From Ianthella basta (Eukaryota; Porifera; Demospongiae; Verongiida; Ianthellidae): DNA of 64,000 nt. Below the pieces are notes generated by a model that was given only the letters and a program-made list of their open reading frames with translations, did no database searches and was not told the DNA's origin. Position numbers and translations under genes: made by a program. The DNA is taken from positions 4,443,427-4,507,426 of the forward strand of contig OZ025882.1 in NCBI GenBank assembly GCA_964019415.1, written 5' to 3'. The stretch's first letter is position 1. Every line of letters begins with the position of its first letter. Positions 9,201 to 58,637 of this stretch are shown here, piece after piece.

Positions 9201-11794
9201 GTGTATATTGTAACTTGCACTGTATATACGAACATGAAGCCATACGAAGACCTAAATCTGAAAACAATATAGGGGCGCCTTCGGCGCCCCAAAAATTGAA
9301 GCCAGCTATTTGCGTGGACTGTGTTTATAACTGCGTGTTGTTGATAGCCTGCACGAGTGTAATGCGCACAGCATTAGTTTTTAGCTGTTTTTCACAGTCA
9401 TAGGAGAAGGGTAGTCAGATGCTGCATGGCCCCTCCCACAAGGTCAGGTACCGTCGCATACATTGAATTCTGCCCACATAGTTGTGCTTTAATCAGATAG
9501 CAGGACAGCTCAGTAACACTTACAAATATGCTAATTAGATGTGCAAAGTGCACAATACAGCACCATGGTATAGCCAGTGAGGGTGATGGAAGCAGCAGCG
9601 AACGATGCTGTTCATTATTTGGGTTACAAGCATATGGTTCTGTCTGGTGTCGTTTTGGCTGAGTAGCCTTTGCAGTTGCATACTAGCATCAGGAAAGCCT
9701 GTGCTTTGCATGTCTTCCTGTTCAGATTGCTGTGACCATGTCACTTCGTTGCAAGTGAGGAATGCCACTGTTGTATGATTGTCTTGCTTATACAACACTA
9801 GCGTCGAATGGAACAGCAGCTTACAATTTTTACTCAACAATGCTTACATGTACAAAGCATGTGTGCAGATTGACGCAAAAATACTCCAGAGCAACAAGTC
9901 AGTGTATGGTGGGGAGGGGTCAAGTGACTCCTGACTAGTGGGAGGGTCACAGTTACACAGACAGTTTCGACCACATACAGTAGGCTTTTGTCGGCTGATA
10001 CAGGTGTGAATGCCTTCACAGCTGAAAGTAATTTGACCCCTCCTGCTACTGTAGCATAAGAATCAGCTTCAAAGCTACTGCTATATATTATGTTAATCCA
10101 GGAACACGATATGTTTTAGACTTCACCTTAACCATAGATAACAGTACATATGCATTACGTATGACTGTACACAGCAAGGACCATTTTGGGCACAGGTTGT
10201 GAATATAGGCCATATACTGACCCTTTACAATTGTATGATTGAACATTTCTTTCTCAATTGCCTGATAGCAAACAAAGTGCAGAACTGCTGACTCAGTTGC
10301 TTCAGTTCTGCCGAGAGATTGCTGATGGTATGAAGTACCTCTCAAAGAAGGGGTTTGTTCACCGTGACCTGGCGGCAAGGAACATCCTACTGAATGGAAG
10401 ACTCAGATGTAAAGTAAGTATAGACTGGTATTTAACCTGAACAAATGTATCCTGTCCATGACGTTTGTTGCAAGCTGTTAAAGTGTTACTACAAGTTATT
10501 TGACTGGAAACTATCATCAAGCATTGTAAGAAAGCTGAGTGGTGGAGATATGATGTGCTGCCAGTGTTGCCCCTGTAGCCACTTCCTCTGGTTTTTCCCT
10601 TCTGACCAGATTGCAGATTTTGGTCTGTCCAGGGATATAGTTGATGACACCTACTACACTGCAACAGCAGGGAAAATCCCTGTTAAGTGGACAGCTCCTG
10701 AGGTATTCAGTTACACTTGGAATGTTCTCTTTCGGAATTGCCTAACTTTCTCTGTGTTGCAGATTTAAACAGCTGATAGCAATGTTCTTGTATCTGTTTT
10801 GTCACTAATTAACTACACAGGCCCTATTCTTCAAGAAGTACAGCACAAGTAGTGATGTGTGGAGTTACGGGATGCTGATGAAGGAAATATGGTCACTGGG
10901 GGAGAAGCCATTTCCCTCCTTGGCTCCACTGGAAGTAAGTTGTGTTAGTGTTTTGACCACTCATTAAATGCATCAATTAGTATTGCTGTGCTTATAGAGA
11001 GGTGTGCTGGCTCCATATACAAACTTGTCTTCTCTCTCCTTTCCTCATAACGTGCACATGTAGTGTGTGACCAAGCTCCAGGATGACCCTCACTATGTCC
11101 AGCCTCCTCCACCAGGCTGTCCTAGGGCCATTTACCAGCAAATGGTACTCTGCTGGTAAGCATGTCAATATCATTCATGTACGTATGAGGTGCTGATTGT
11201 GGGTCAATGGTGGTGATTGAGGAGGCGTTATTTTGATGCCATGTATTTAATGATGGTAGCGATTCTGAATGTAGTCCATGAATCTGTTGAGATGATTCCG
11301 CACAGCAACCTCCTTTCAGAGGCAATGATTTTAACGAATCTAGTAATCTTTCTGTGATGAATTTACTCAAGTAACTGAATCTGTCTATGTCTCACTGAAT
11401 TTACTTCACTGATGAGTTTTGGTTTGTGTGAACATTGTTAAACAAAGAGTATATTGGTATTATCTTCCTTCATCATTGACAGCTTGTCATTATTTGTATA
11501 ATTATTCTTCCTTCATCTTGGCAGCTTGTCATTGTGTTCCCCCAACAAGCCTTCACCATGCTGTTTAGTTTGTGTACATATTACTTCTCCACCTGTAGGA
11601 ACAGTGACCATCATGGGCGCCCCACCTTTGCTGCCCTTCTTGAGACTCTGTCTGGTCCTTCTGATGAGCTGCTGAGGATCCCAGAGGAGAGCCTCAGAGA
11701 AGTGAAGAACCCAGAGATGGCAGCACAGATTGGAGCTGCAAGGATGTTTTCTCTTGACCTGTACCTTGACTTACAAAGGTACTACTACTACTAA
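1385..11794 (+). CDS. RTK-1, receptor tyrosine kinase (multi-exon)
   Basis: A transmembrane tyrosine kinase. Exons: probable ectodomain about 1385-1701 and 1763-1897 (Ser/Thr-rich), membrane helix 2271-2537, juxtamembrane 2828-3120 and 4372-4502, glycine loop and Lys 4588-4801 ([17 protein letters not shown]), 4903-4970, catalytic loop 10269-10413 (HRDLAARN), 10610-10702 (DFGLSRD, activation-loop YY, VKWTAPE), 10821-10934 (SDVWSYGM), 11064-11155 and 11599-11794 (stop TAA). From 2271 every splice phase closes without a break. The juxtamembrane part has many tyrosines (YTEVP, YENVQF, EELYGQ), likely phospho-docking sites. The 5.3 kb intron 4971-10268 splits the kinase and contains a giant palindrome. 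The join between 1701 and 1763 is not phase-clean and no signal peptide was found, so the 5' end is uncertain. The kinase should act at the plasma membrane; its ligand is unknown. Confidence 0.85.
3213..3252. repeat. (GT)n microsatellite
   Basis: About 20 perfect GT dinucleotides in the RTK-1 intron between the two juxtamembrane exons, followed by degenerate GTGCATGTG units. Confidence 0.95.
3274..4200 (-). mobile_element. Composite DNA element: element P plus foldback B, copy 1
   Basis: The RTK-1 intron 3121-4371 is filled by two joined elements. Positions 3274-3920 (element P) are the diverged reverse complement of 51985-52475: both have a CACGAGC(A/G)(T/C)GACGTCT end, a conserved CCTAGGTACGTAAG-like core and a CCCCTTCCTTAAATTAG end. 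Positions 3922-4180 form a palindrome (foldback B) with arms meeting near 4020 in a TAGCTAGCTAGAC-type loop. Relatives of foldback B lie at 43740-44020, 48262-48360 and 50516-51915. No transposase is encoded, so it is a non-autonomous element. Confidence 0.75.
4971..5819. other. RTK-1 intron, left of the palindrome, with a diverged tandem duplication
   Basis: No exon is seen. Positions 5459-5640 and 5641-5815 are two diverged copies of a unit of about 175 bp; both contain GCTGTA(C/T)CTCGCAGA, ACACGGCGAAA and GCGCGGCCATTT or GCGCCGCCATTT. Near 5055-5085 there is a short GGGGCGCC/GGCGCCCC hairpin. A related CATCTCGCAGCAGACGTTCC string occurs in the repeat array at 46270 and 46960. Confidence 0.6.
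5820..9222. mobile_element. 3.4 kb palindromic foldback element
   Basis: The termini are CAGTGCAAGTTACAATATAC at 5820 and its reverse complement ending at 9222, flanked by TATATA on both sides (a TA or longer target duplication). The two arms are almost perfect inverted copies over more than 1.4 kb. Landmarks are the TAATA array 5867-5911 against 9098-9183, the GGTTAGGCACCCCTCACGAA segment near 5921 against its complement near 9070, and CAC/GTG-triplet tracts near 6560-6900 against 8090-8450. The main fold point is near 7767. The left arm is about 490 bp longer because of extra repeat units and a second palindrome at 7140-7383. The motif GTGCAAGTTACA recurs many times. Open frames inside are low-complexity (His- or Thr-rich) and no transposase is visible. 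Confidence 0.9.
7140..7383. repeat. Inner palindrome nested in the left arm
   Basis: A near-perfect inverted repeat centred at about 7261; the left end GTGGCTCCGGGCC pairs with GGCCCGGAGCCAC. The same central words (CCTAAGGGCATGCCATTGAA) form the main fold point near 7767, so this is a second copy of the element's centre. Confidence 0.9.
9223..10268. other. RTK-1 intron, right of the palindrome
   Basis: No exon is recognised. A short GGGGCGCCTTCGGCGCCCC hairpin lies near 9271-9290. Open frames on the minus strand at 9535-10019 show no recognisable domain and are treated as chance. Confidence 0.5.
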
Positions 11795-12864
11795 AGTAAC
11801 AACTGAGCTCCTGGCTGTAACTACATACACACATCAGATCAACTCTAATGTAAGGGCTGATGTATAATGAGCGCTCTCTTGTAAATAGGTACAACAATTT
11901 TTTCAGCACACAGAACTTCAATAACGCATCATATGTGTATAGTATGATATGTGTACAGTGAATATATGTATAATTAAGGTTTGGTAGGAGCAAATTGACT
12001 TTCTCCCCAATAGTGACACGTGATCAAGGCTTAATAACGTATAGGCCATGTATATATAATTGCTGTGAATGGGAAACTATACTGGAATATATATACCGAT
12101 ATACATCTAGCAAAATAAATGAGGCACTTTGGACATGTGTACATTTGAAGGACTCACACTTGTATGCATGATTTATTTGCTACAGTCCCATCTAGTATAT
12201 ATGCAGTGAGGGCTATTTTGGACACTGATATTGCAATATTGCATGCCATCATCAACTTCTCAGTCACATGCCTGAATTTCATTTTGGACAAAGCATCATG
12301 ACATGTACAGGCAGTGTGCATGTGTTCCTATATTACAGTATGTACAGTACATTAGTTATTATTAGTATTGATATTAATATTGTACTATCCAGTTCAGAAT
12401 ATTTGAATTGATTCTACTGCACAGCTGAGAATGTGTATATCCAAACAGTTTCTTGACATGCTGCATGGGTCCAATTGTAATTCACACTGCTCAAACAGGA
12501 TAATGCTTCATCTTTATTTGCACGAGCAGTGGCTTGTGGCATGTGTACTGATCAGTACATGCACTGGTCCTGGCTATAATTATATTTACTTAATTGCGTT
12601 GGTGGTGTTTTTCACTCCATTGACTAACACTACTACTCTACTTGCACATACAGTGTTCACGCTCTGTAACTTGCACACAATGCACTGCATGCATGGGTAT
12701 CTTTTCCATTGCAGCATACAATACTGATACACTCAATTACTGCAAAATACTTAATAAATGTCTCTAGCAAAAAGGGTGCTCATACAATGTATACGTTAAA
12801 GCACTATATACACTCATATAATTATTTTAATCAAAGTCAATTATAACAGGATTATATTACCCAA
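11795..12864. other. Convergent intergenic spacer RTK-1 / RTK-A
   Basis: Shared 3' flank of two tail-to-tail genes. A candidate polyadenylation signal AATAAA for RTK-1 lies at 12114-12119, about 320 bp after the stop. Positions 12360-12760 (CCAGTTCAGAATATTTGAAT onwards) recur beyond the 3' end of RTK-B (29048-29420), and part of this recurs at 58400-58600, so the duplicated block extends past the coding region. No gene is seen. Confidence 0.6.
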
Positions 12865-38740: not shown

Positions 38741-41441
38741 CTGTGTACACATGTGGAGATAAGTATGTAAATAATAGCATATGTACAGTGCACTGTTGGG
38801 CATTGCTCTTGTAAGACATACTACTCGACCTTTCCCTTACATGCAGAATAGTGTCAAACAAGTGCAAGGCATACAGATAAAACTACAAATTCTCTAAAAT
38901 CTAAGTGTTTCATGAGATATTGCCGGTTAACCCCGTGCATAGTTCTTCACAATGCCTATAACATCAAAGTAATTATTTCAAGCAGATGACAATTATCACT
39001 CTTACTCCCATTAATACTTGAAGCACACAACCCCCATTTTACTTTGGCAAGAACGGACATGCACTGTCTATGTGTCAAAACGTACTGCCCACTTGATTGC
39101 AGACTGCAGGCCTAGCAGAGCTGCCCTCCCCCCCTCCCAAACCCCACCCCAAACTGGGGTGTCTAGATGAAAACTACCACTACTAGTCAGCTTGCTACAT
39201 TGCTTTGATTTGCCCTGCTTGTGATTCTTCAACACCATGTGACAGGAGACATGTATAGTTGCTAATGCCACTGGAACCTAATAAGGTTGCTGGTAGGACT
39301 GTGCACAGATGATTGCATGCATACATGCATGACTGTCTCTGTCACCTTCCAGGGTAGTACTGCTTTATTAATGTCATGTTAAGACATTATGAGCGCTACT
39401 GTGACAGCTATATCCACAACTGAACAAAGAAGCTTCCAGAAGTGGCACTTACACAAAGCCATGTCATAGCCACAACTGCTCTAAGGCAGGAAAGGCAAGC
39501 AACTGAAGCAACTATAATATACAAACTATATATAGCTTCACTGCAACACATAGCTGCCCACATCATAGGCGGAGGAAGCTCACAAACTTCGGGGGGACTG
39601 TACTGGTTAAGTTAGTATTTTTGTCAATACATTATGTTAGGTTTCTAAAACATTGGGGGGCTTCAGCCCCTCAGCCCTATAGGTCCCGCCACCAATGCAC
39701 ATTGTACAAAAAGGTACCGTTGACTAAACATCTTTGTACATGCACAAACAGTGGCACTCTAGCCATCTTATCTAACCCAATGGCCTGCATGGGTACAAGG
39801 CTACTGGTATCCCCACCTCAGAGTGTCTTCTCCTTTCTAGTGCCATTTTATTCTACAGATTAAATTTGGATTATGACCTTAAGAACTAGACAAGGGTAGG
39901 CTAGTTGTGCTAGGTGAGAACACCACATTAAAAGAAAAGACTGCCATTTCACTCAGTGTTTACATGATCGTGATCCTAAAAAATGGCATATAATCAAGCT
40001 CAACACTAGTTGTGAGTGTAGTTTGAATGATGCACATAGCACAATTGGTTTAATCACCTAAAAGATCTATTGGGTTAAATTATCATGTTTACATGCAACT
40101 TTCATCATGTGTTGGTTGTCATAATGGTATTATAAAACCTAACTGAAAGAGTTTAACCTTGAAGTTCCCTGAAACACTGAGAAGCCTCATTATCAGCCAA
40201 AGAGAGATGTGATTTCTTCAAATAATATAGGGACATAAGTGGTTCTAAACTGTAGTTGCCAGTCAACCTGATTATAGTCTAGCGAGCCAGACTAACCTGG
40301 TACTCACAGTGGACGTAACTGGCTGTACTATCATCACTACCTATGTATGAACCAATAACTGTCACAGTATTACTATACCTATTGTATAAAAACGTCAAAT
40401 GTAGTTCAAAGGTAAAGTTCATATCATGCAAGCTGATATTACATATGATGTTGGTCCACAGCACCACACACATACTGCAAATATTGTTTAGCCTTGGTCT
40501 GATCAGTCAGGCCCATAGCCTGGTTAGAAAATGGGGGGGTCTTGTCCAGCCAAAGGGGAACACAGTGCAATACTATGAATGCTGCTGAGCAGTGTTCAGT
40601 TGAGCCATTACTACGTACAGGACTAGGCTAGTATTAGAAGTGAACATGAAACGACAAGTTGGTGTGACTATAATGTAGAGTTTTCAGTGGCAGGTGGAAC
40701 TTATCCAGTGCTGTAGGGGGCAAGGCCGTACCTGGGGGGGTGGGTCTTCCGACCCCAGCCTGCGGGCCTGCCAGCAGTGTGCACAGTGTGAGACATAGAG
40801 ATACGAGAAGAACTTGGCCGTTCGAGCCAAAGGTCTTAGGCCCATGACAGCGGGAATGAGCCGAGTGCGTAACTCACATGCCCTCTCCTTCGGCTCCGAC
40901 GAAATTTACACAGAAGGCAAGCGCAAGGCTAAACCCAAGGACTAATGATACTTTCTTTGCCGCCATCCCAGCAGCAACCGATCTCTGGCTAGTTCCCGCG
41001 CAAGAGAGATAGCCACGTAGCTATTAATCGAGCCCAGAGAACTCTTCCGCTCAGGCTCGGGCCACACCCCAACACCCTTGCCCCAATAGGCTGTTTGGGA
41101 ATTGCGGGGCTCGACAATTATGCATTCCGCTTCCGGCCGCCATCTTGAAATGGTTCCTGCAGCAATATATAGTGAATACCTTTATTAAATGTATATATAA
41201 TACCACGTACCTATTGAATAGTGCCAACTCTCTCTCCTGTTCCTCTTCACAGCACTGCTGTACAGTAGCTAGGATCATGTTGTTCGATTGCTGCCCACAC
41301 CAGGACAAGTACTGTCCAATTCATTACCCATGTGGCTGTGCTTTCCTATTGCACTACACTCCATAATTGAGTTTTGAATACCGACTACATGAAGCATTGA
41401 GCTAATATATTAGCTGGGGGTTGTGGACATGCATGACATAG
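38741..41441. other. Spacer upstream of RTK-B, no gene recognised
   Basis: No signal-peptide or kinase exon is seen. Scattered open frames on both strands have no recognisable domains. Missing 5' exons of RTK-B may lie here but cannot be picked out. Confidence 0.4.
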
Positions 41442-42790
<1,349 letters not shown>

Positions 42791-44694: not shown

Positions 44695-47600
44695 ATGTAC
44701 GCGCAACTGCGTGTTCTACGGCTAAGACGCAAGGCCTTGGTGTGCTTCAACTTGCTGCTCTTCATGCTCTGTCAAGGTAGCTAATTGCAATAGCACAATA
44801 GTAAGAATTGAATTCGTATTAAGTCACGACTCGGAGGAAAGGTAGGGCAAGGAAGGGAAAAGTTGCCACCGGCCAGTATCGAACCCGGCCCCATCTGTGC
44901 TCTTACGCGGAGATTAACTTTGGTACATGCTTTATAGTTGTATGTAGCTATGTCACCTCTGTGGGTGTCCTGATTGCAGAGGTATTAGCTACTAAGCTAG
45001 ATATGCTGCATATTGGTACTTAAAAATACCATACATTTGACTTCGGCACCCAATGTCCAGTGTGATCTGAAAAGGATCTGCAAACACATCTTTCCTCACA
45101 CCTACAAACCCTATTCGACCACATCCTTAGGTGTGAGATCTTGCAATCATTAGTGTATGTACACATTGCAACTGTAAATCCATGTCTCCCCATGACCTAC
45201 AGGCACAGCCCCTCACATACTTTCTTCCATCCTCTTTCAACAGGGCCTCTAGCTCAAACAGTTTTCTGCCAGGATGAATGTTCATTTGGTAACCTTCCAT
45301 CCTTCAGTGGGGAGAATGCCTCAGGAGAGCAATGCTGCAGAGATGAAGGATTTACCTCCTACAGTATTGACTTAGGAGCTTGCATTAATTGCAGCAGTAA
45401 GTAGATGCCTTCACCTTGCAGTCTAGTACATTGCACACACACAAGTTGTACACATATGCTGTTACAGTAACTGGGTTGTTTCATCATAATTATAAGCCAC
45501 AAATCTGTGCCAGTAGGTCACTTGAAATACTAGTGTGTTCGTTGGTATCCTTGCTTGCATGAATTTGGTTGTGCTGCACACAATATTAATAACACCTGCT
45601 TCATTTTTCTCTTGCAGTTGCCTTTCCGCCACTAAGGTGCGTCTGTACTTGAAATGCACATTTTCTTGCAACATGCATAGGATGTGTAGGCATTTTCCAG
45701 CACTTCTCAAGGGAATGTGTAGCCAATAAAAGAGTGCTGACACTTTGCATGCAGGGACATGTGTTTCCAAGTGATCTTGTATATCTTCAACCGTATGGCC
45801 TGAAATTATGGTGGGGAGTTTATTTTGGAGGATTGGCAGTTTGAGAGCAATCCGCCAATATTTCTTCTGCCAAAATTTTGTGATAATTATTGCATAATCG
45901 CAGTTTCCCTGTGCAGAGTAGACTTATAGTTAATTGGATGCACCAGGCCTGTAGGCATATCATCGACATGGAGTTCACCATCAACAGCTGTGCTCGAGGA
46001 TACAATGTTTCAAGTAATAGTTAAATGCTGACCAAGAGGTGTCTCTGAGATTTAGAGCACGAGGCACGAGGGCGCGAAGCGCCCGAGTGCTGAGTGGTCT
46101 AAATCTTCAGAGACACCGATTGGTCAGCATTTAAGTGTTATAGATCCCGACGATTGGGCAAGGAGCGGCAGCGAATCAGTTTACCAACTCGTACTTGCGT
46201 CATCACGCGTCTTCCGGAAGTAGTTAGCAATTTTTGACAATGGCCGAGAAAACGTCGTTTGGTTATTGGTTTGTCATCTCGCAGCAGACGTTCCTAAAGG
46301 TCGGCAGTGGATGCGGCGCGTAAGCTAAACGTAAGGTTACTCACTGTCAGCCCCGTCAGCCACAGCGTTTCCTAGAGCGGTGTCCTAAGCCTGTTCCCAG
46401 CTCGTAAGCAGTTCGCTCCTTACTATGCTCTGGTTCGTAGGCCGCTGCGGATTGTTGCTTTACCCTGTTTGTCGACGAAACAAGTAAGCCGAGTGACCTT
46501 TGCATCGTATGTTGTGGAGTTAGCCACTATTGTTGTCGCAGCTGCAGTTTCTCTGCTATAGACCACGGGCCTAAGCCACGCCCATGCTCTAAATCGGTAT
46601 TTAGAGCATAGCGCGAACGCCGCGCGTGCCACGCCCATGCTCTAAATCGGCATTTAGAGCATAGGCGCGAACGACGCGCGTGCCACGCCCATGCTCTAAG
46701 TAATAGTTAAATGCTGACCAAGAGGTGTCTCTGAGATTTAGAGCACGAGGCGCGAGGGCGCGAAGCGCCCGAGTGCCGAGTGGTCTAAATCTTCAGAGAC
46801 ACCGATTAGTCAGCATTTAAGTGTTATAGATCCCAACGATTGGTCAAGGAGCGGCAGCGAATCAGTTTAACTACTTGTACTTGCGTCATCACGCGTCTTC
46901 CGGAAGTAGTTAGCAATTTCTGACAATGGCCGAGAAAACGTCGTTTGGTTATTGGGTTTGTCATCTCGCAGCAGACGTTCCTAAAGGTCGGCAGTGGATG
47001 CGGCGCGTAAGCTAAACGTAAGCTTACTCACTGTCGGCCCCGTCAGCCACAGCGTTTCCCAGAGCGGTGTCCTAAGCCTGTTCCCAGCTCGTAACCAGTT
47101 TCTTTCTCGGCTCTGGTTTGTAGGCCGCTGCATGCCGGATTGTTGCTTTACCCTGTTTGTCGACGAAACAAGTAAGCCGGGCAACCTTTGCATCGTATGT
47201 TGTGGGGTTAGCTACTATTGTTATCGCAGCTGCAGTTTCTCTGCTATAGACCACGGGCCCAAGCCACGCCTATGCTCTAAATCGCGATTTAGAGCATAGG
47301 CGGGAACGCCGCGCGTGCCACGCCCATGCTCTAAATCACGATTTAGAACATAGGCGCGAACGCCGCGCTTCGAATTAGAACACGGCTAGACGAAATAGAC
47401 CACGGCGCGGAACAACATCCGGGGTGTCTACGACGTTTAGAAACATCGTTTAGACGCACGTTACCATGGCAACGGGATCTATATCGGCATTTAGAGCATA
47501 GGCGCGAACGCCGCGCGCCGAATTAGAACACGGCTGGACGAAATAGACCACGGCGCGAAACAACACCCGGGGTGTCTACGGCGTTTAGAAACATCGTTTA

Positions 47601-50600
47601 GACGCACGTTATAATACCTATTTGCTCCATTGTACTTGTGTGAACTTCCATTATAACTCTTAATGCATGGACCTTTAGTTTATGTTGGGCAGTGCGCATG
47701 TGTGCCCTATGTATAATTATTATTGTGTTACTTTCCATTTAGACGCACGTTACCATGGTAATGGGATCTATAGAGTTTTAATTTGGTCACCAGAGGTGGG
47801 AGAAGAGCTGCCTTAGCTTGTCAGCATGAGGGAGGCAATGTAAACGGCGTTGTGTATGCGGGTGAAGACTGACGTTGATATTGTTGTTGTTCGCTTACTT
47901 AGGAAGACCTTTATTGGCAGCCATTCTCTGTTTCTGCGTTGGAGAGGTACGATTACATACTAGGTCACAGGCAGCAGGGGAGCATCAGCAAATCTATACC
48001 GCAAGGAGGCTTGGAAGTCCCTTGCACATTGAAGAATTCTTGGACAAGACAAAAGATTGGAACAAAAAATACTGTGGATTTGGTCAAACAATGACTTATG
48101 TACTCCTCAGTCACAATTAGGCCAAAGTATATTCCGCCAAATAGTGAAAGAACATTAGAAGGATAAATCTAATGAAAACTCTTATTATTTCAAAGTACAA
48201 TCACTATAAATTATATATAGTGCTGAAACTAGAGAATAAAGACGTTTGCTCAAAAATGAGAAAGAAATTAGGAATGATCAGCTGAAAAAGCATATAAACG
48301 AGCCATAGCAACTCAACATTTCAACACATCTCATTTCTGTTGATTTCACACTGCATTTCACTGAATCCCTAGTTGAGGCCAGTGATCTTTTGAGTAGATC
48401 ATTGACACCTGCATGTCTGGGGTGTACTCCTGCAGCTGAGGCTGTGCAAACCCAAGTGGTCCACTTCAGCACCACACTGATAGCATTTTTGGAGTTTGCA
48501 CAGGATGACCCCTAGGTAGAGCCCCGCTGCCACCCAAAGCACCTCATTATCTGTGGAAGCTACGTATTGATCAATGTGCTTCAGATTAAAGGTGCTAAAG
48601 TTTCACCTCCTTGACGTAGGGCACTGAATGAGGCCACTGCGCCCAGTAAACTCTTCCTTCCACCAGTTCTGGTTCACCTTCTCTAGCACAGTCACAGTGC
48701 CCCCTTCTTTATTCACATAATATATTATAGCTCATCCTCTTTCTGAGGTTTAAATTCATACATGTTCTGTTGTGTGTGTAATAGTTGAATGCTGACCAAG
48801 AGGTGTCTGCTGGATTTAGAACACGTAGGTCGAGGGTGCAGAGCGCCCGAGTGCTGAGGCATGCTGAGTGTGTTACATAACTCTTGTTTTGTGTACCTGA
48901 AGAAGCCTGTAATGGGTGATTGTTGCACTGAAGTGACAAATGTTTCCTGGTGAACTCCATTGTCCAAATGAAGGATCAAGCTACTATCAATTCAGCATGC
49001 CTAATACCTTTCACAACTACTTATATGTAGGCGCGGTGGAAATTTACCACTCAGATTTGCGACCTTGAGCTTTGTGCTCTACTTCCCACTGTGACTTCTT
49101 GGTTAATTGGCATTTAACTGTTACATATACATCACTAAACATGCATGAGGTGCTTAAGTAGTGGCCATAGGTGTAGAAGTACGTAGTACTCATGCATATC
49201 TCATAACTTATTTATATAGCAGAATCACGCAGAACAAAGTGCAGAAAGTTAGATATTCAAAAACCAAGCCCAAAAGGGAGTTGTCAAATGCCATCCATGG
49301 TCCACAACATTCCTTATAGCTTTCTAGAACGGTGTAGCAATGCCTGTTTTTCATAAATGTGATGGACTATGTCTTAATCAATCACTGTCCTTGCTGAATT
49401 CAGTTGTGAGGCTTATGCAGGCAGAGTCTGCTCACCCTTATACAACAGCACAACCATTGTCACTCATCTAATGTCAGAGATGGAATTGGATACCATTTTG
49501 CAAAACTTCCACCGTGCAGCAACAGGAACTGGACAGAGTGACACAGCTACAAACAGGTACTATGGAATGGTGTGTGTGTGTGTGAGTGCCTGTGTGCATG
49601 CATGCGTGCGCACACATGCACATAATTTATTGTGGTGTGTATGGCACTGTGCATGTGTATAATATGAGTGTGTATTTGGCATAAATGAATTTATGTTTGC
49701 GTGGCAGAGCTATACACATGTACATACCCTAAGATGTATGTACATACATCTAGACACATACTACACGGGTGGGTGTTGCATTGCTGCTAGAACAGAATCA
49801 ATGGAGGACGATCACTGCCAATGGTATGGCCTGCTACAAGGCACAGTGGAAGCCCTAGCTATTGAGCCTCAAATGGCCTGCACCTCATTACTTATGCTGT
49901 ATATATTATATGTACATACACTTTGATTAGTCAGCAGTGTAAGAAGGCTGGGTCTATACTTCTAAACCAATAGTGACATTCTGCCGTATGCAGAAGTCTA
50001 CACATGGTATGTACAGTATTTCCTTAATTCTTTGCTCACTGTAAGAGTTGTGGCTCTCACTTTAAAATTTAATTTCTCTTCCACACTCTTATGCTCTGTT
50101 ATAGGTGTGAAATCCTCTTTAGGCAGGCTCTCTGCTTGACCCAAGTACCTGAGTGCAACCCTGCCCTTACTCCTCCAGCTGCCAATTACCTCAGGCTGCG
50201 CAACAATCAGTCGTGCTTTGACTTCTATAAAGACCTTGTGTCTACTTGCAGTGTCATTGGTGCTAACGTGACTGAACACCTCACTAATGCAACCACCCAG
50301 GACATGTTCTGTCCAGGATATGTTAGTGGGACGTGTAAGGATGTACCAGGTGCAGTTTATGCTGCCGTTAACTGCTCTGCAGCATGCAGTAGTGAATGCA
50401 GTACTATCTGTAGTGTACCACTGCGTACTAGCTATAGAGATCAGTCCAACAATCATGCTTGCACACAAATATAATATGTCCCCTTAGTAAAATGCACCCA
50501 TCCCCAAGATATTTTTATTATTATAGTGCATAAACATTCCTTTAGAAATAAAAAGAATTTAGGAATGGCCGACAGAAAAAAGCATAAAAACAAGCAACAG

Positions 50601-53600
50601 TAACTCAACACCATGATGAACTGTCATGAAAAATTTGGACCCCCTGAAAAGGTTCACCCAGTTTAAATATTTCAAAACATTTGGACCCCCTGGAACTAAT
50701 ATTTCAGAAATGGACTGAAATCTTTGGACCTACCCTGAAATATGTGGGCCCCCTCATCTATGTTTATATTCTAGGTTTTCCAGGCATAATGCATTTCACT
50801 TTCATCATCCGCACAATGCTTGCATGGGAATTTGAACTTCATAAAAATACATAAGTGAATAGAAATATACATATGCAGAGTAGCTATAGCTATAATAAAT
50901 GTTGTGAAAATAAATAATGTGAATGTCACTCAGTCTGTCCCCAATGTAACCCAATGTCATTGACACCAAACATGCGCTCTCCCACATACTCTAGATTTAA
51001 CATACTGTATGCCCACAAAGCTACATACATGCCAACACTGGCACACCCACGCCCACACCCACACTAATGGCAGTGTCCAGTCTGGTCTGTAAGCTAGATT
51101 GTACGTACTACTCAGTACTGTGTGAACCTGTGTGATAATTCAATAATACTCTCTGTAGGCATACTGAAAGATTTCCCTCACAATAGCTGTACAGGAAAGG
51201 AGTCACCAAAACATAAACATGTTGTTTTAGGAAGTGCTAATGTAATGTGGACATGGTTCAGTGACCAACTTCCCTTTCCTATTCCATACAGCAATTGTGT
51301 AGAAGGCTTTTCTGTGACTCAAGAATAGACTGTGAATGCACAGTAATTAAAATTTTCAGAGCTAACTTAGACCCCACAGATTGAGCTATGTTATGTTTGA
51401 GCTTGAGGAGGTTAGAGGGGTAGCCATTACCCATGCAGCACGTGCTCAATAGCATGCTCTAACATAACGTCTCCTTTGGTAACGGGTTCTTCCTTCGGCT
51501 CCATCTTAATCTCACTCAGAGTGTGACCCGCTAATTCGCTCGCTCGCCATTTCTATGTGTGCAATCACGCGTAGTATATAATATCTATGGTGCAATGTAG
51601 GGGAACTTCTATTTCAGTTGTAGTCCAAATATTTCTAAATATTTGGACTAGGGAGAATGTATATTATGGGGGGCCAATTTTCACGTAACAGAACCACAAT
51701 TCTGTGAAGTTTGCTCTGCATTCCTACTTTCCTTGTACAACTACATGGACCCAAATGTCTATCTAGCTAGTCCAATGTAACTACAAGGAAATTAGGAATG
51801 CAGAGCGAACTTCACAGAAATGTGGTTCATCATGGTGTTGAGTTACTGTTGCTTGTTTCCATGCCTTTTCTGCTGGCCATTTCTAAATCCTTAATTCTAA
51901 AGGAAATTTTATACACTGGATTGTACAGTTTTTGCATATCCAAAAGACTATGGCTACATCAGATTAATACCAGCGCTGACTAATACCCCTTCCTTAAATT
52001 AGATGAAGATTGTGCAGAACATCGAGCACAATTGTGCCACTTAGTTGATGAAGCGGCTGCCGTTTACCAGGCAACAAAATGGCGGCATTTGGGGTATCTT
52101 TAATACACCGGAAAGACAAATTTCCTGCCCGCTCCAGCGCTATACTTATCAGATTGCCACCGTCGCTCATATCCTACTCCTTGACCTAGGTACGTAAGTC
52201 CTCATACACTATTTAGGTGCATAGGTGTCCTGAGTCGTGCGCTAGGAGAACATATGGGATATGAGCAGCCTATGACGCTTTTCTCTTACGTGAACTCCAG
52301 GCTGACTTTGGCTGCACTGCCGTCTTCAATACATCAAATGAAGTCTATCCATGGCCTTCAATTGTTCTTCGCCGTAGCAGTTTGGCTAGTTTCGCCGAAG
52401 CGTTCTAATAAGATGGGGTAGCCATTTTATCTGGCACATTACCAAATGGACGTCACGAGCGCGACGTCTGATGTAGCAGTATGTAGCTCAATGAGGGTGG
52501 CTGGCCAGAGCAACTAGTTGACTACTGGATCGTTCACCACTGTGTCCTTCTTTGCATACTGCTTCAGAAGTAGGCATGTGTGGTGTCCTGCTGCCCACAT
52601 TACAGGAGAGTGGTGCTTAGGCAGTCTTTCCATCCTTGCATGGTGATTACCACAGATGGCCTGGGTATATATAAGGCTAATATCAATAGTACATTACATT
52701 TGTACAAGACATACAAGCATAAACAACGCGCTTAACTCTTACGTATGTATCACTGACATCAATTTACCCCACATTCTTTGTAATTAGGACTTAGCTACAA
52801 TCTCTGTTACTTATTGAACACCTTTGATTCTGAACTGTGCATGCTTTGAATGTGCCTTGTTCAGCACCTTCAAAGAGACCTTATGCAAATGTGACAAGGA
52901 CGACAGAGACAGACTTCCCTACAATGAGCATGACACCTAGTGGCAGTCCCTTGATACAGTTATCTTGGGCTAGCATTGGACTGATGGTGGCTGTCATTGT
53001 TTTCCTGGTGGTTGGATCAATCATAGTTGCTGCTGTACTGATTGTGTGGTGGAGAGTGAGGAAAAATGGAGGGAAGCCATGCACAGGTCAGCAAATGCTT
53101 TTATTGCACATCAGTTGATTTTGCAAAGATGTTTTCTATTATATTTGAGTAACCATTTGTTTTTTCAGAAATGAGCTTTAAGGGGGAGTCTGCAAACAGT
53201 TAGAGTTTAACTGGCTCCTGAGGACGCATGGTACCTGATCTAAACTGGAATTACCTGCAATCTTTATGCTGGCTCCATGCATGCACTGTGACTGTTGCAA
53301 TTGTTGGCAGATTCAACCAGTGAACTTGCTATGGTTTGTTCTACAGTGTGCTAACCAGCTTATGCTATGTGTGGCAATAACTGTGTTTGACAGACCTGTG
53401 CCTCTAGTTCTTACGAATGTATGCTGTATAAAAGTGGTTAAAGTATAGGATTTGAAGCCTAAATAGACTTTAGTCTACTGTAGGTTGTTAGCTGAGAAGA
53501 GAGTGAGCACAAAGAAGCTGTGAAGGGGCACAATATGAAGAATGGAATGCATGGAATGCATGTATGGACCAAAAAGCATATGGTAGACTGGAGGCCAGCA

Positions 53601-54928
53601 CAGTGAAGCAAGTGGGACCAACTACTTAAGGAGGAGGACACCTAAAGCCCTCTACATCCACCAACAATTACCTAGTCTCCAACCTTGGCTTTGACCGCAA
53701 ACTCAGCTAGTCTTGTGTGGTCCCTGCTCTGATCAAGTCCCCCCCCCCCCACACACACACATGCACTACAATTTCCCATGCACTCATAATATTCTGATGT
53801 ACACTAACTGCATTTTAATATTTCAATTTTGTAAAGATTTGCAGACACTAGCCAAATGGACAATGTTTCCAATGTTTTGATAGCGTATAGCTACCTTCAT
53901 CAGGGAACAATAACTAGTGGAGGACTGATGATGTGGTAATGAATAATGTTAAAAATGTTAATGATAAAAGCAATTTGGATATACTTAGGATAAAGTCAAT
54001 GTAGAGCAGTGGGAGCATGGTAGGCAAGTTGCTAGGCTAGTCCAACAAGGATGAGTACTCCCTCAGGAGTGTCCTTTGTTCATGATTTAATATGTTTGGG
54101 TAGCGCTGGATGTGCCAGCTTTCCTGGTGTCACCGTGGTTGCCCATGCAGGGGTGGGTGTCAATTATTTCAGCCTGGGACAGGTCCTCTAGATAGCCTGT
54201 CGACCACGTATGTTTGGCCAGAGCAGATGTGTCCACATCCCTGTTCCATAATGCCCGTTTGTGTTCAACCAGGCGGTAATGTAGTGTTCGGTCAGACTCC
54301 GACATACACCTTAGGGCATTCGGACCTACCTAGCCACTCAGGCTTTTTCAACAGTAATACCTGTTATTATAAGCTACCAGAGGAAATGGTCATGTCAATT
54401 AGTGCTGTATTGAGGCAATTGCATGCAAGTCCACAGTATATTGTTACAGTGCTTCTGTTTCACATCTGTCCTGCTGTATATACATGTAAATAGGTGCTTC
54501 TGTTCCTGAAACCAGTACTGTCATAACCATGCAAGACAATCCATCCTACAAAGCAGTGCAAGGAGAGCAGATAATGCAGCCAAATTCTGATGTCGTTGAG
54601 CAGCTCTATGGTGGGCAACATGTATATCTTATATTAAAATTTGTCTGTCAGGTCTAATCATCTAGGTCCTGCAGTCAGTGCAACTTATATAGATAGCAGT
54701 CAGTGGATTACTAATGTTGTTCCTGTACAGTGGTGCATATTACCAAGGTACAGTATGCCTATCCACTGTGCAGTTTTATTGACAGGAGTGCATGAGAGTG
54801 GGTATGCTTCTTTTGGTATGACTTATACCTAGCTATAGTGTGTGTGCACACGTTGTACTGTACACATGCAATGCTTCTTATATATTGTTGCTGCAGACAC
54901 AGTTGATGAATACTTTGACTACATATAA
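44695..54928 (+). CDS. Single-pass receptor with Frizzled-type cysteine-rich domain, no kinase
   Basis: Eight exons with compatible phases: 44695-44776, 45244-45396, 45930-46013, 49478-49556, 50105-50334, 52865-53086, 54494-54610 and 54897-54928 (TAA). They total 999 nt, 332 residues. The order is signal peptide (KALVCFNLLLFMLCQG), a CC-containing segment (GEQCCRDEGF), then CARGYNVSS, ILQNF, CEILFRQALCLTQVPEC and QSCFDFYKDLVSTC, matching Frizzled CRD spacing including GYN and L-C-x4-P-x-C. A Pro/Ser/Thr stalk and a helix (LMVAVIVFLVVGSIIVAAVL) end in RVRKN. The tail has NPSYKAV, EQLYDTV and YFDYI, plausible docking or endocytosis motifs. There is no kinase exon before the stop. A short alternative terminal exon (53169-53203, EMSFKGESANS) would also be in phase. 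An upstream in-frame ATG exists, so the start is a choice based on the signal peptide. Confidence 0.72.
46013..47610. repeat. 686-bp tandem duplication and hairpin-rich repeat array in an FZ-receptor intron
   Basis: AGTAATAGTTAAATGCTGAC starts at 46013 and again at 46699; offsets inside (AATGGCCGAGAAAACGTCG at 46238 and 46924) stay at 686 bp. Each unit has a GAGATTTAGAGCACGAGG hairpin with GCGCGAAGCGC loop words and paired TGTCTCTGA/TCAGAGACA. Short units CATGCTCTAAATCG...CGATTTAGAGCATA follow repeatedly (46574-47520), then two copies of a unit of about 125 bp with AGACCACGGCGCG (47390-47610). GC is higher than the surroundings. A relic of the unit start lies at 48778-48860. No convincing coding frame. 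Confidence 0.85.
47611..49477. other. FZ-receptor intron, remainder
   Basis: A plus frame at 47875-48120 (RPLLAAILCFCVGEVRLHTR, then EEFLDKTKDWNKKYCGFGQT) looks protein-like but matches nothing I know and lacks an ATG. A partial foldback B relic lies at 48262-48360. Nothing else is recognised. Confidence 0.4.
50516..52480 (+). mobile_element. Composite foldback B + element P, copy 3, interrupted by a nested element
   Basis: The left arm of foldback B (50516-50621) and the rest (51690-51915) are separated by an insertion. 51985-52475 is element P, the inverted relative of 3274-3920, ending in GACGTCACGAGCGCGACGTC. It occupies the intron before the membrane exon of the FZ receptor. Confidence 0.75.
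50622..51689. mobile_element. 1068-bp nested transposon with 4-bp target duplication GAAC
   Basis: The ends are TGTCATGAAAAATTTGGACC and the complement of TGTTACGTGAAAATTGGCCC. GAAC is duplicated at 50618-50621 and 51690-51693, splitting ATGATGAACCACA of foldback B. Inside, the minus strand near 51520-51410 has a short frame MEPKEEPVTKGDVM, possibly a captured or transposon first exon. Confidence 0.8.
53860..54345 (-). mobile_element. Penelope-like element fragment (GIY-YIG end)
   Basis: The minus frame at 54305-54087 reads SDRTLHYRLVEHKRALWNRD, ALAKHTWSTGY, QAEIIDTHP. Just before it another frame gives CPKVYVG. KVYVGE(S/T)xRxLxxRLxEHKRA...ALAEHxW is the GIY-YIG endonuclease core of Penelope-like retroelements. 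One frame break lies between the halves, and the reverse transcriptase part is missing. It sits in an intron of the FZ receptor. Confidence 0.65.
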
Positions 54929-56165
54929 TGAGTTCAGAAATCAGATCAGGAAACATTTGCAGACAATGTAGTTTCATTATTTTGTTCCTAATTTTACATC
55001 AATGATACATTAAGTATTCGTTGCACTGATGGTAGAATTGTATATTGCTCTACAATTATTATGAAACATCAAAATATGCCAAGTCAAACTTACTATAGAT
55101 GGAATGTTCAATGTATGACCAGTGACTTTCACATTTTCCTGTGTCATGGCAAGGCATGTGTATTATTGCAAGCCTTGAGGACTGCGTTATGGCTTGTCAG
55201 TGCATGCTGCATAACAGGAAAAGGAAACTTCTTGAGCAATGGACAAAGCATATAGTTATATAATTATAGGTTTAATATACCAGGACCTTTCAGGTGTACG
55301 TATATAGGCCTTTGGCAGCTACGGGTGAGAAGATGGTGTTTGTGTACAGGTGGTTGTGGTGTGACATCATATAGGTGGTCTACAGTGACATCATGTGAAG
55401 CAAAATGGAATCATTCAGGATGTGGGAGTAAATTAGTATATAAAAAGTTCACTTTACGTAGGTCAATACAGGTAAGTTTAGATTGCGTCCTGCAGCAGCA
55501 TGCGGGATCCAGAGATGTGGAGACCACAGTCCAAGCTCATAGAGTATACCATTCACTGCTGATCTGGCACAATGGATATAAATGCCTGCAGGGATTTTCT
55601 GTTCCATTTCCATGTGCTGTCATCTGCACTCTAGCTTGTTCACAATCCATTTTATGTTGGAGTTCCCGTTTTACTGAAACTTTCTTGCTGTTCCACTTCA
55701 CCAGTTATCTTTCACCCATACAGATTCAGCCTCAATTCTCACACTTATCTCTTCTGCTCAGGACCATGGCAGGCCTACATTTGGCCATGTAGGCCTGCAT
55801 GGACTGAATACAAAGCAGTTGATGATTGATTCTGCTACATCACTGGTCACGATCTATTTGCCTAACAGTCATCATGTAGTTGTATAGCCTCATCCCCAGG
55901 CCCTTCTCGTTAATTGCGCCCACGCTAATTATCGCGGACGGCCTGGGGACGAGGCTAGTAGTTGTATGGTAGTGTCTTTAGTACACCTTTGCCAATAAGT
56001 GCCAATACCGTAATCGTTGAAAATTTCGTTGTGTGGAAATTTTCGTGGTTGCCTCCATCCACGAAAATTATGCCCACGAAAATTTATGTACAAAGAATAC
56101 AGTAGTAACTAATATAATATGTCTAATACATTAAAGCGATACGAAGGTCTGCATCTGAACTCGTT
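54929..56165. other. Spacer between the FZ receptor and psi-E
   Basis: No gene recognised. A 155-codon plus frame (55325-55792) has no domain and looks accidental. A 73-bp mini-hairpin lies at 55885-55957 and short GAAAATTT(T)CG inverted repeats at 56018-56085. Confidence 0.5.
55885..55957. mobile_element. Mini-hairpin, TAGCCTCG family, second copy
   Basis: From TAGCCTCATCCCCAGGCC to GGCCTGGGGACGAGGCTA with a TAATTATCGCGG centre. It pairs almost perfectly with itself and resembles 38340-38395. Confidence 0.75.
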
Positions 56166-56564
56166 TGCAATGGAAGCTTATGAGCTTCGAGCGCAGTATT
56201 TACTTCAATAGGATACAGAATGTTTCGATCCATTGATTTTCATCAGCTGTAATACTAAACTTAGGGAAGTGCGACATTAAATAAGGGTGGGCGTGTCATT
56301 GGGTGTCAAATGTTTGGCGGGAGGTGATGTAATGGGGTGGTGATGTAGTGGGTGCAACTAATTAGGAGCAAAGAGAGTGATAGGGAATAGAATGAATAGG
56401 ATAGGATATGAGGTAGGTTAAGTGGCCTGGGAGGGGGGGGGGGGCAGTCAAGGAGGGCAGTGGGATGGAGGCTTGTTCAACAGGGGGAGCCAGGATGGAT
56501 TGATGTTGAGCCCACAGTTAATAAAAGTTAGTACTGCGCTCAAAGCTCATAAACTTCCATTGCA
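56166..56564. mobile_element. TIR element upstream of psi-E
   Basis: TGCAATGGAAGCTTATGAGC at 56166 is matched by the complement of TGCAATGGAAGTTTATGAGC at 56545-56564, followed on both sides by GAGCGCAGTA. It is about 400 bp with a G-run (56430-56444). It lies where the missing kinase exons of psi-E would be. Confidence 0.75.
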
Positions 56565-56626
56565 TCGTGACCACGCAGTAATGAACCTCTGCAGTATCAT
56601 TCCTGTGGTTTGTCCCATCTGACCAG

Positions 56627-57833
56627 ATTGCAGATTTTGGTTTGTCCAGAGAATATTGTTGATGACACCTACTATACTGCAACGGTAGGGAAATTGCCTA
56701 TTAAATGGACAGCTCCTGAGGTATTCAGTTACACTTGGAATGTTCTCTCTCAGAATTGCCTAACTTTCTCCATTTTTTGCAGATATAAATAGCCAGTGTC
56801 AATGTTCTCGTATCTGTTTGGTCACTAATTACCTACTCAGGCCCTATTCTTCAAGAAGTACAGCACAAGTAGTGATGTGTGGAGTTATAGAATGCTGATG
56901 ACATAATTATGGTCACTGGGAAAGAAGCTGTTTCCCTCTTGAATCCAATGGCAGTAAGTTGTTTCAGTATTTTGACAACTTGTTAAAAGCATCAACTAGT
57001 ACTGCTGTGCACATAGAGAGTTGTGCTGGCTCCATATACATACTTGTCTTCTCTCTCATTTCCTCATAACGTGCACATGTAGTGTGTGACCAAGCTCCAG
57101 GATGACCCTCATCATGTCCAGCCTCCTCCACCAGGCTGTCCTAGGGCCATTTACCAGCAAATGGTACTCTGCTGGTAAGTTTCAATATCATTCATGTACG
57201 TATGAGGTGCTGTTGTGGGTCAATAGTGAATCCGAAAATGAGGAAACAATATTATTTTGATGCCATGTACTTAACAATGGTAGCAATTCAGAATGTAGCC
57301 CGTTGAGTGCACAAGAATATATGCCACGTGTGCACCTAACTGGCAATACAGCAATCTGAACATCTGTTGAGACGATTCCTAACAGCAACCTTCTTTCAAA
57401 AGCAAAGATTCAATAGGACTAAGAATCTCTCTACATGGTGACGAATTTACACAAGTAACTGAATCTGCCTACCTCTCGCTGAATTTACTTCAGTATTGAG
57501 TTTTGTGTGAATATTGTTAAGCAAAGAGTATATATTTGTATCATCTTTCTTCTTCTTGGCAGTCTGTCTCTGTGTTCCCTCCAACAAGTCTTTACCATGC
57601 AGTTTAGTTTATGTACATATTATTTCTCCACCTGTAGGAACAGTGACCATCATGGCCGCCCCACCTTTGCTGCCCTCCTGGAGACTCTGTCTGGTCCTTC
57701 TGATGAGCTGCTGAGGATCCCAGAGGAGAGCCTCAGAGAAGTGAAGAACCCAGAGATGGCAGCACAGATTGGAGCTGCAAGGATGTTTTCTCTTGACCTG
57801 TACCTTGACTTACAAAGGTACTACTACTGCTAA
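56627..57833 (+). pseudogene. psi-E, 3' kinase pseudogene related to RTK-1
   Basis: Four exons align with the last four of RTK-1: 56627-56720 (DFGLSR, then one extra base near 56650 shifts frame), 56841-56953 (one base short, with stops after MLMT), 57083-57174 (intact) and 57638-57833 (intact, stop TAA). The glycine-loop and catalytic-loop exons are absent upstream. Introns and the 3' flank also resemble RTK-1, so this is a truncated genomic duplicate. It cannot make a kinase. Confidence 0.9.
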
Positions 57834-58637
57834 AATAACAACCAAGCTCCTGGCTGTAACTACATACACACATCAGATCCACTCTAATGTAAGGGCTGAT
57901 GTATAATGAGTGCTCTCTTGTACATATATTTGTGAGCATTATTAGCACACAAGAAGGTAACTGCTGTGTGTGACATTCTAACTTACAGGTTGTATATTTC
58001 AAATGTAATGCTTATTTGTGTGTGTGTGGTCCATTATTATGATTAGTGATCTCTTAAATAAATACACAATTTTTCAGCACACAGAACTTTAAATAATGCC
58101 TGATATGTGTATAATATGTTAGATAATGTTCGGAACTACACATGGTAAAGAAAGAATGGCGGAAGGAAAATATGACAGTCAACCGGACAAGCACCAGCAA
58201 CCTCCAGATCTTTAGCTGACCTTTAGCAGCTGCAGCCGGGTCACTGGTCACCGCCAACAGCTACGTGATTTATTCCCCCTTTATAATACTGAAGTGGGCG
58301 GGCTCCATCCATGCGCAGAGCCACCTCTGAAACTCCCATGCACACTGGACGCTGACTATATCAGAAATGCTTTAATTAAGCTGGTCTATGTACCATAGTG
58401 ACTAACACTACTACTACTTGCACATATATACAGTGCTCACCCTCTGCAACTTGCACACAATGCACTGCATGCATGGTATACGTAGTCTTTTCCATTACAG
58501 CGTATAATAGTGATACACTCAATTACTGCAAACTATTTAGTGTCTCTAGCAAAAAAGTGCTCAGACAATGTATACGTTAATGCATTATATACACTCATTT
58601 AAATGAAAGTCAATTATAACAGGATTATATTACACAA
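57834..58637. other. Convergent spacer psi-E / RTK-D
   Basis: The counterpart of 11795-12864. An AATAAA lies near 58057. It shares the segment CTTGCACATA...CAGTGCTCACCC with the RTK-A and RTK-B 3' flanks. No gene. Confidence 0.6.

Follow-up and report, generated by a model that had tools for sequence, protein, structure and literature searches.

Frizzled-type cysteine-rich domains (CRDs) occur in the receptor tyrosine kinases (RTKs) ROR and MuSK, where the domain begins with C-x2-Y-x-G-x-V-C; MuSK also has a juxtamembrane NPxY motif. MFRP and CORIN are single-pass membrane proteins of type II that carry CUB or protease domains, and we know of no docking tail of the kind described below on either of them. 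Single-pass receptors with a short NPxY-bearing tail make up the LDL receptor family, and the paired activating/inhibitory immune receptors (KIR-like) are tandem siblings with common ectodomains and different signalling tails. Here we analysed a gene of Ianthella basta that can be compared with each of these systems. It lies in a window of 64,000 nucleotides (nt) on contig C15 (C15:4443427-4507426; positions without a contig are those of the window), within a cluster of RTK genes, and its eight exons (44695-54928, plus strand) predict a single-pass receptor that has a Frizzled-like CRD and docking tyrosines and lacks a kinase. This arrangement, proposed in a preliminary description of the window, was supported by the exon model and by the lack of kinase matches.

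As in ROR and MuSK, the predicted protein has a single helix, and the start of its CRD can be likened to the motif given above; ROR-like and MuSK-like genes were recognised by eye in the same genome. Unlike ROR and MuSK, the gene has no kinase exon and no immunoglobulin (Ig) or kringle match, and its CRD scores under the Pfam cut-off. It differs from the LDL receptor family in having no LDL-receptor ectodomain module in Pfam, where the trimmed CRD gave a weak Fz match only. The likeness to KIR-like pairs is one of principle and not homology, as here one class has its own tyrosine kinase and the other has docking exons. According to PMC6747125, MFRP, CPZ, CORIN and COL18A1 carry Frizzled-type CRDs outside Frizzled and ROR/MuSK; the gene is like MFRP and CORIN in that its Frizzled-like domain belongs to neither a Frizzled nor a kinase. 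The starting premise, by which Frizzled CRDs are confined to seven-helix and ROR/MuSK receptors, was too narrow. RTK ectodomain shuffling has already been described (PMC8662651). The titles and abstract beginnings of open-licence PMC articles mentioned no kinase-less RTK siblings in sponges, no RTK arrays with docking siblings and no docking-only receptor that carries a Frizzled CRD.

Gene structure and absence of kinase exons

The eight-exon model was rebuilt from the sequence. Exon 1 (44695-44776) encodes the signal peptide MYAQLRVLRLRRKALVCFNLLLFMLCQ and shows 83-85% nucleotide identity, over 46-47 nt, to the signal exons of six upstream units of RTK-A type, of which one is kinase-less. Exon 2 (45244-45396) encodes an N-terminal six-cysteine module and is followed by a 19-nt microexon, exon 3 (45618-45636, IAFPPL). 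The Frizzled-like CRD is divided between exon 4 (49404-49556, CEAYAGRVC...LYNSTT) and exon 5 (50105-50349 in its revised form), while the stalk and the transmembrane helix are encoded by exon 6 (52865-53086), which matches transmembrane exons of the C15 and C11 arrays. The tail is formed by exon 7 (54494-54610), the docking exon with NPSYKAV, and by exon 8 (54897-54928), the last coding exon, which ends with DTVDEYFDYI and a stop. One pattern search found no homologue of the 32-nt exon 8. A 45-nt stretch 3' of exon 8 (55114-55158) recurs with 82-84% identity beyond docking exons at C15:4300278, 4318912 and 4341145 and might represent a common 3' end.

All seven introns are GT-AG, with a running phase of 1,1,2,2,1,1,1, and the open reading frame (ORF) extends over 361 amino acids without interruption to a TAA. 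The protein has one strong hydrophobic segment, at about amino acids 275-301, and a weaker one near amino acid 14. Its four tail tyrosines lie in NPSYKAV, in EQLYDTV, which straddles the junction of exons 7 and 8, and in EYFDYI. The exon coordinates, phases and stop of the preliminary description were thus reproduced exactly, with canonical splice sites and 361 codons, and the single membrane helix and the motifs NPSYKAV, EQLYDTV and (E)YFDYI were recovered in the translated model. The GYN motif that had been assigned to the CRD is absent from the protein, which reads LYNSTT instead. An ORF at about 45900-46018 does hold GYN; inspection by eye revealed no splicing that would suit the phases on both sides, and without it exon 3 joins exon 4 cleanly.

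For exon 5, the start and the reading frame given earlier were confirmed, and the end at 50412 was revised. A better donor, between 50349 and 50350 (CCAG/GTGCAG), is in phase and lies 63 nt before the former end. The related gene on contig C6, described below, reads CCAG/GTACAT at the matching place, and past that point alignment gaps of 1 and 5 nt disrupt the frame. Because in-frame conservation with the C6 gene stops at this donor, we placed the end of exon 5 at 50349; the former extension (50350-50412), corresponding to residues 218-238 and including NCSAACSSECSTIC, is probably intronic. The shortened model is likewise open.

Kinase exons were then sought around and beyond the gene. Queries drawn from RTK-A (kinase and juxtamembrane exons), from RTK-1 and from the C6 gene (kinase exons) gave 0 matches in 44695-56500 at E up to 0.05, and no tyrosine kinase domain of the kind that follows the helix in ROR/MuSK RTKs was found there. 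As a control, 12 of the 13 kinase and juxtamembrane queries matched RTK-A (from 4.3 kb) and each of the three RTK-1 copies in the window. With a smaller database a single antisense match containing a stop appeared at E 0.040, which we take as chance. The RTK-A helix and juxtamembrane exons also found no match within the gene.

The CRD cassette and its kinase-bearing relative

A protein search of the whole genome (209 Mb, 96 contigs) located exons 2, 4 and 5 at one other place, C6:3815027-3817826 on the minus strand. The two cassettes share 63% amino acid identity and 72-75% DNA identity, which reaches into the introns, and their splice phases agree. The microexon measures 19 nt here and 22 nt on C6, both lengths being 1 modulo 3 and both following TCTCTTGCAG. 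No further strong place was found in the genome for the C6 CRD, the next match having an E value of 0.01 and 28% identity.

The gene that holds this second cassette (C6:3803000-3818900, minus strand) has a Frizzled-like CRD and, downstream of it, a hydrophobic exon and exons of a tyrosine kinase running from the glycine loop to the C-lobe. With its exons joined by eye, the kinase scored 281.9 bits against the kinase profile. The best 60 of its 813 PDB matches comprised AXL, MER, TYRO3, IGF1R, FGFR, insulin receptor, MET and MSP receptor chains and, at a further point of difference from ROR and MuSK, no chain of either; the top row, a 678-residue chain labelled EGFR and matched in two stretches, was set aside. 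A Frizzled-like CRD is thus carried both by a gene with a kinase that is not obviously ROR/MuSK-like and by a docking-only receptor. That the gene in the window is a lone oddity is not supported, as a C6 gene with kinase exons has the ectodomain in common with it and other kinase-less units use docking exons of the family to which its tail exon belongs.

The docking exon family

Apart from the gene itself, exons 6 and 7 matched 76 places in the genome (E up to 1), of which 37, by hand count, lie at E up to 0.01. A docking-exon query of two joined peptides found 62 places at E up to 0.01, including this gene and one doubtful place on C19. A pattern aligned 21 of 24 docking exons, the three others being left out as the pattern did not parse them; the first tyrosine was present in 21 of 21 and the second in 20 of 21, and the pN/pS pooled over the 21 exons was 0.51.

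The whole of exon 7, with its flank and donor, aligns at 74% with an exon of the kinase-less unit on the minus strand at C15:4288973, and the gaps within the exon are multiples of three. Exon 7 had also been considered as a plain RTK juxtamembrane exon, from a likeness of its motifs to RTK-1 and RTK-A seen by eye; this was rejected, as the genome search returned docking exons and the kinase-less counterpart. The gene has the layout of the kinase-less docking receptors of this genome, that is a helix exon, a phase-1 intron, a docking exon and no kinase. The RTK-A-type ectodomain of six nearby units is absent, and the CRD cassette stands in its place.

Kinase-less siblings in the receptor arrays

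Mapping of C15:4.27-4.45 Mb from ordered search matches, with features on C11, C22 and C15 below 2.7 Mb left out, revealed 11 units of the order ectodomain, helix, juxtamembrane and kinase, and six of the order ectodomain, helix and docking exon (four on the plus and two on the minus strand). Both classes draw on the same ectodomain and helix family. At one extra kinase place, C15:4249983, no ectodomain was matched. Of the 11 kinase units, seven were read as DNA and showed K1, K4, K5 and the C-terminal exons in every case and a K3 match in six; the remaining four were called from the K1 match. Three kinase units (C15:4299411, 4317881 and 4432476) have a docking match 6-8 kb past K1, and in the first two a complete kinase precedes it.

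None of the six docking units showed a same-strand kinase exon 3' of the docking exon, each being read to the next unit or over at least 4.6 kb; the kinase-less call covers this 3' DNA, and the DNA from ectodomain to docking exon was read in some of the units. The first docking exon carries NPxY in all six. One unit gave a weak RTK-A juxtamembrane match (E 0.042), its second docking exon being open and its third broken, and in another unit the second docking exon has a stop.

A second array, at C15:2.74-3.41 Mb, holds 22 helix matches, after which the next feature is K1 in 14, a docking exon in seven and neither within 6 kb in one; a single match covers both features at entry 2854013, which was counted as helix and as docking exon. 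Since 150 of 1722 K1 candidates were scored, the seven docking cases are to be seen as provisional candidates. One of them was read and showed an open helix-plus-docking frame with no kinase match.

The Frizzled-like CRD

The assignment of the ectodomain was evaluated by profile comparisons. The trimmed CRD matched Pfam Fz (PF01392) with 21.6 bits (E 3.4e-4) and the CRD of the C6 relative with 24.1 bits (E 5.5e-5), both under the curated cut-off of 32.1; a Pfam scan with the full protein gave no Fz, Frizzled seven-helix, Ig or kringle match. Against a hidden Markov model (HMM) of nine CRD segments, hand-picked from this genome and including two under the Pfam cut-off, the domain scored 17.4 bits, which none of 1000 full shuffles and one of 1000 shuffles with fixed cysteines attained. 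The C6 CRD scored 19.8 bits with the same shuffle counts, and hhalign returned a probability of 88.2 over 58 columns for the CRD of the gene. No PDB chain was matched by the full protein or by a profile of the two CRDs. Ten conserved cysteines are given in PMC6938638 as the rule for Frizzled-type CRDs; up to the revised end of exon 5 the gene has nine, and the C6 relative ten.

The domain therefore shows a resemblance to Frizzled-type CRDs beyond composition and cysteine spacing, with a score below the Pfam cut-off and one cysteine short of ten. The Frizzled-type label of the preliminary description held as far as this resemblance goes, in the shuffle tests and in hhalign, and failed at the curated threshold and in the PDB search. 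We take the ectodomain to be a divergent Frizzled-type CRD with a putative CRD fold. The protein is not a Frizzled receptor, as it has one helix segment besides the signal peptide in place of a seven-helix domain. The ROR2 CRD is without a lipid groove, according to PMC11219042, and therefore Wnt binding is not to be assumed for the gene.

Other CRD-bearing loci were noticed by eye. A ROR-like kinase at C14:253500-260000 is accompanied by two kringle-like segments and by two Frizzled CRD segments that score below threshold. The MuSK-like kinase at C14:2737500-2743500 has a CRD and Ig-like segments, and its juxtamembrane motif reads NPYY. Divergent Frizzled-like CRD segments with fewer cysteines than usual are repeated at C16:342500-352400.

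Interpretation and alternative explanations

We tentatively read the gene, with a confidence just short of even, as a shuffled kinase-less docking receptor that may act as partner or competitor of kinase-bearing siblings. Exon shuffling would have assembled it from an RTK-A-family signal exon, the CRD cassette common with the C6 gene, and helix and docking exons of the kinase-less family. The predicted product is a one-helix protein whose short tail offers a phosphotyrosine-binding (PTB)-type NPxY site and a YDTV site. This reading draws on the exon model, the C6 cassette, the docking exon family with its pooled pN/pS, the unit maps of the two C15 arrays, and the low chance of a stop-free coding sequence under neutrality and the cassette dN/dS that are given below. 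Its ligand would be the same as, or similar to, that of the C6 receptor, and it could pair with that receptor or with the neighbouring RTKs. Its tail would then be phosphorylated in trans and draw PTB or SH2 adaptors, and the outcome might be amplification of, or competition with, the kinase-bearing siblings.

Several observations weigh against this interpretation. The gene is without one CRD cysteine present in the C6 relative and without the second NPxY tyrosine of its family, being the one exception in the alignment of docking exons, and its nearest exon 7 counterpart, at C15:4288973, reads NPYS and not NPxY. The NPxY counts are biased, both those of that alignment and those of docking exons picked across the arrays and read individually (19 of 20 for the first motif and 20 of 20 for the second), as NPxY was part of the query and was preferred in the choice of frame, and as several copies are almost duplicates. 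The second NPxY is found in four of the six docking units, and the unit at C15:4277881 has stops within its ectodomain and helix matches. As to the cases at C15:2.74-3.41 Mb, the RTK-1 exons of the window, 63% identical, are not among the K1 matches listed. Finally, over 179 codons of exons 2, 4 and 5 the ratio of nonsynonymous to synonymous divergence (dN/dS) between the two cassettes was 0.545 (bootstrap 0.357-0.836, with 6 of 1000 replicates at 1 or above), a value that spans two lineages and is also fitted by one constrained and one relaxed copy.

These losses, together with a dN/dS that fits relaxation in one lineage and the broken docking exons elsewhere in the cluster, would also be expected of a truncated or decaying receptor, a former RTK minus its kinase with exons still open, non-functional or acting as a passive decoy. 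A damaged RTK-A-like kinase 3' fragment (56600-57926, plus strand) points the same way, as it begins 1.7 kb downstream of the gene on the same strand. Its DFG-APE exon is frameshifted, the next exon has a stop and the C-terminal exon is open; no N-lobe or HRD exon was found in it. The fragment is 82% identical in nucleotides, introns included, to the RTK-A end in the window (10583-11887); with copies further upstream the identity of some parts rises to as much as 90%. The same order recurs at C15:4299426, where a stray docking exon beyond a complete RTK is followed, 1.5 kb on, by C-lobe exons without an N-lobe (C15:4301018-4302352). This repeat of the order at a second docking exon counts against mere debris. 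The fragment may be a remnant of the gene's own lost kinase, which would weigh against our preferred reading; it may have come as debris from an RTK nearby, or be what is left of the end of an ancestral kinase. Because C15:4299426 repeats the order and the 45-nt stretch recurs there between the docking exon and the C-lobe exons, the docking units may be descended from RTKs that lost their kinase.

Against decay stand the 361 open codons and the intact splice sites. Under neutrality at 0.21 changes per site, which is half of the cassette dS, the whole coding sequence would stay free of stops with a probability of 0.001 and the ectodomain stretch with one of 0.0465; with 0.1 changes per site these values become 0.032 and 0.159. 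Neutral decay of the gene is disfavoured because of the value of 0.001 at the estimated distance. The RTK-A helix and juxtamembrane exons, moreover, are unmatched in the gene, and the six other kinase-less units have no such fragment on their strand. We consider a decaying receptor unlikely, if still deserving of attention.

An endocytic or scavenger receptor resembling the LDL receptor family would use the NPxY and Yxx-hydrophobic motifs as sorting signals that internalise a ligand, with no tyrosine phosphorylation. The NPxY of the docking exons and the shortness of the tail agree with such a role, but tyrosine motifs are also present beside the kinase in the juxtamembrane regions of RTK-A and RTK-1, including NPMY in RTK-1, and ectodomains and helices held in common with RTKs suggest signalling partners; we regard it as improbable, though still a rival to be reckoned with. 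The kinase exons of the C6 relative and the same-strand C-lobe fragment would also suit a longer, kinase-bearing gene, with the eight exons as its 5' part and the others overlooked. This appears highly improbable, as queries that detect RTK-A and RTK-1 match no kinase in 44695-56500 and the fragment is frameshifted, interrupted and without N-lobe and HRD exons.

The reading as a shuffled docking receptor can be placed in a wider scheme, which we put forward at somewhat less than even confidence. The arrays may constitute a paired-receptor system built on RTKs, in which tandem siblings with common ectodomain and helix have a cytoplasmic half made of either kinase or NPxY docking exons, and the gene would extend this scheme to a Frizzled-like CRD with a kinase-bearing twin on another contig. 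The docking class may have arisen by tail swap or by ancestral kinase loss. The Frizzled CRD frames and ROR/MuSK-like kinases of the genome indicate an animal, and its large RTK arrays would suit a sponge. If the animal is early-branching, as these arrays suggest, sets of kinase and kinase-less receptors with exchangeable ectodomains would point to receptor-pair recognition or tuning, and not to kinase redundancy, and the matched sibling sets would provide a concrete system for tests of trans-phosphorylation.

Other features of the window and the arrays

The three RTK-1 copies of the window lie at 13.7-18.0, 30.8-34.6 and 59.5-63.8 kb. Beside these fuller copies, an RTK-1 fragment on the minus strand (41441-42628) has a stop in its HRD exon and is an apparent pseudogene. 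A large inverted repeat with ACC/GGT-rich arms was seen by eye in an RTK-A kinase intron (about 5820-9240). More large arrays with many tyrosine kinase exons are present at C22:3.46-4.61 Mb and C15:0.71-1.17 Mb. Within the gene itself, the long third intron contains two tandem copies of an element of about 670 bp (46012-47368), which are 93% identical.

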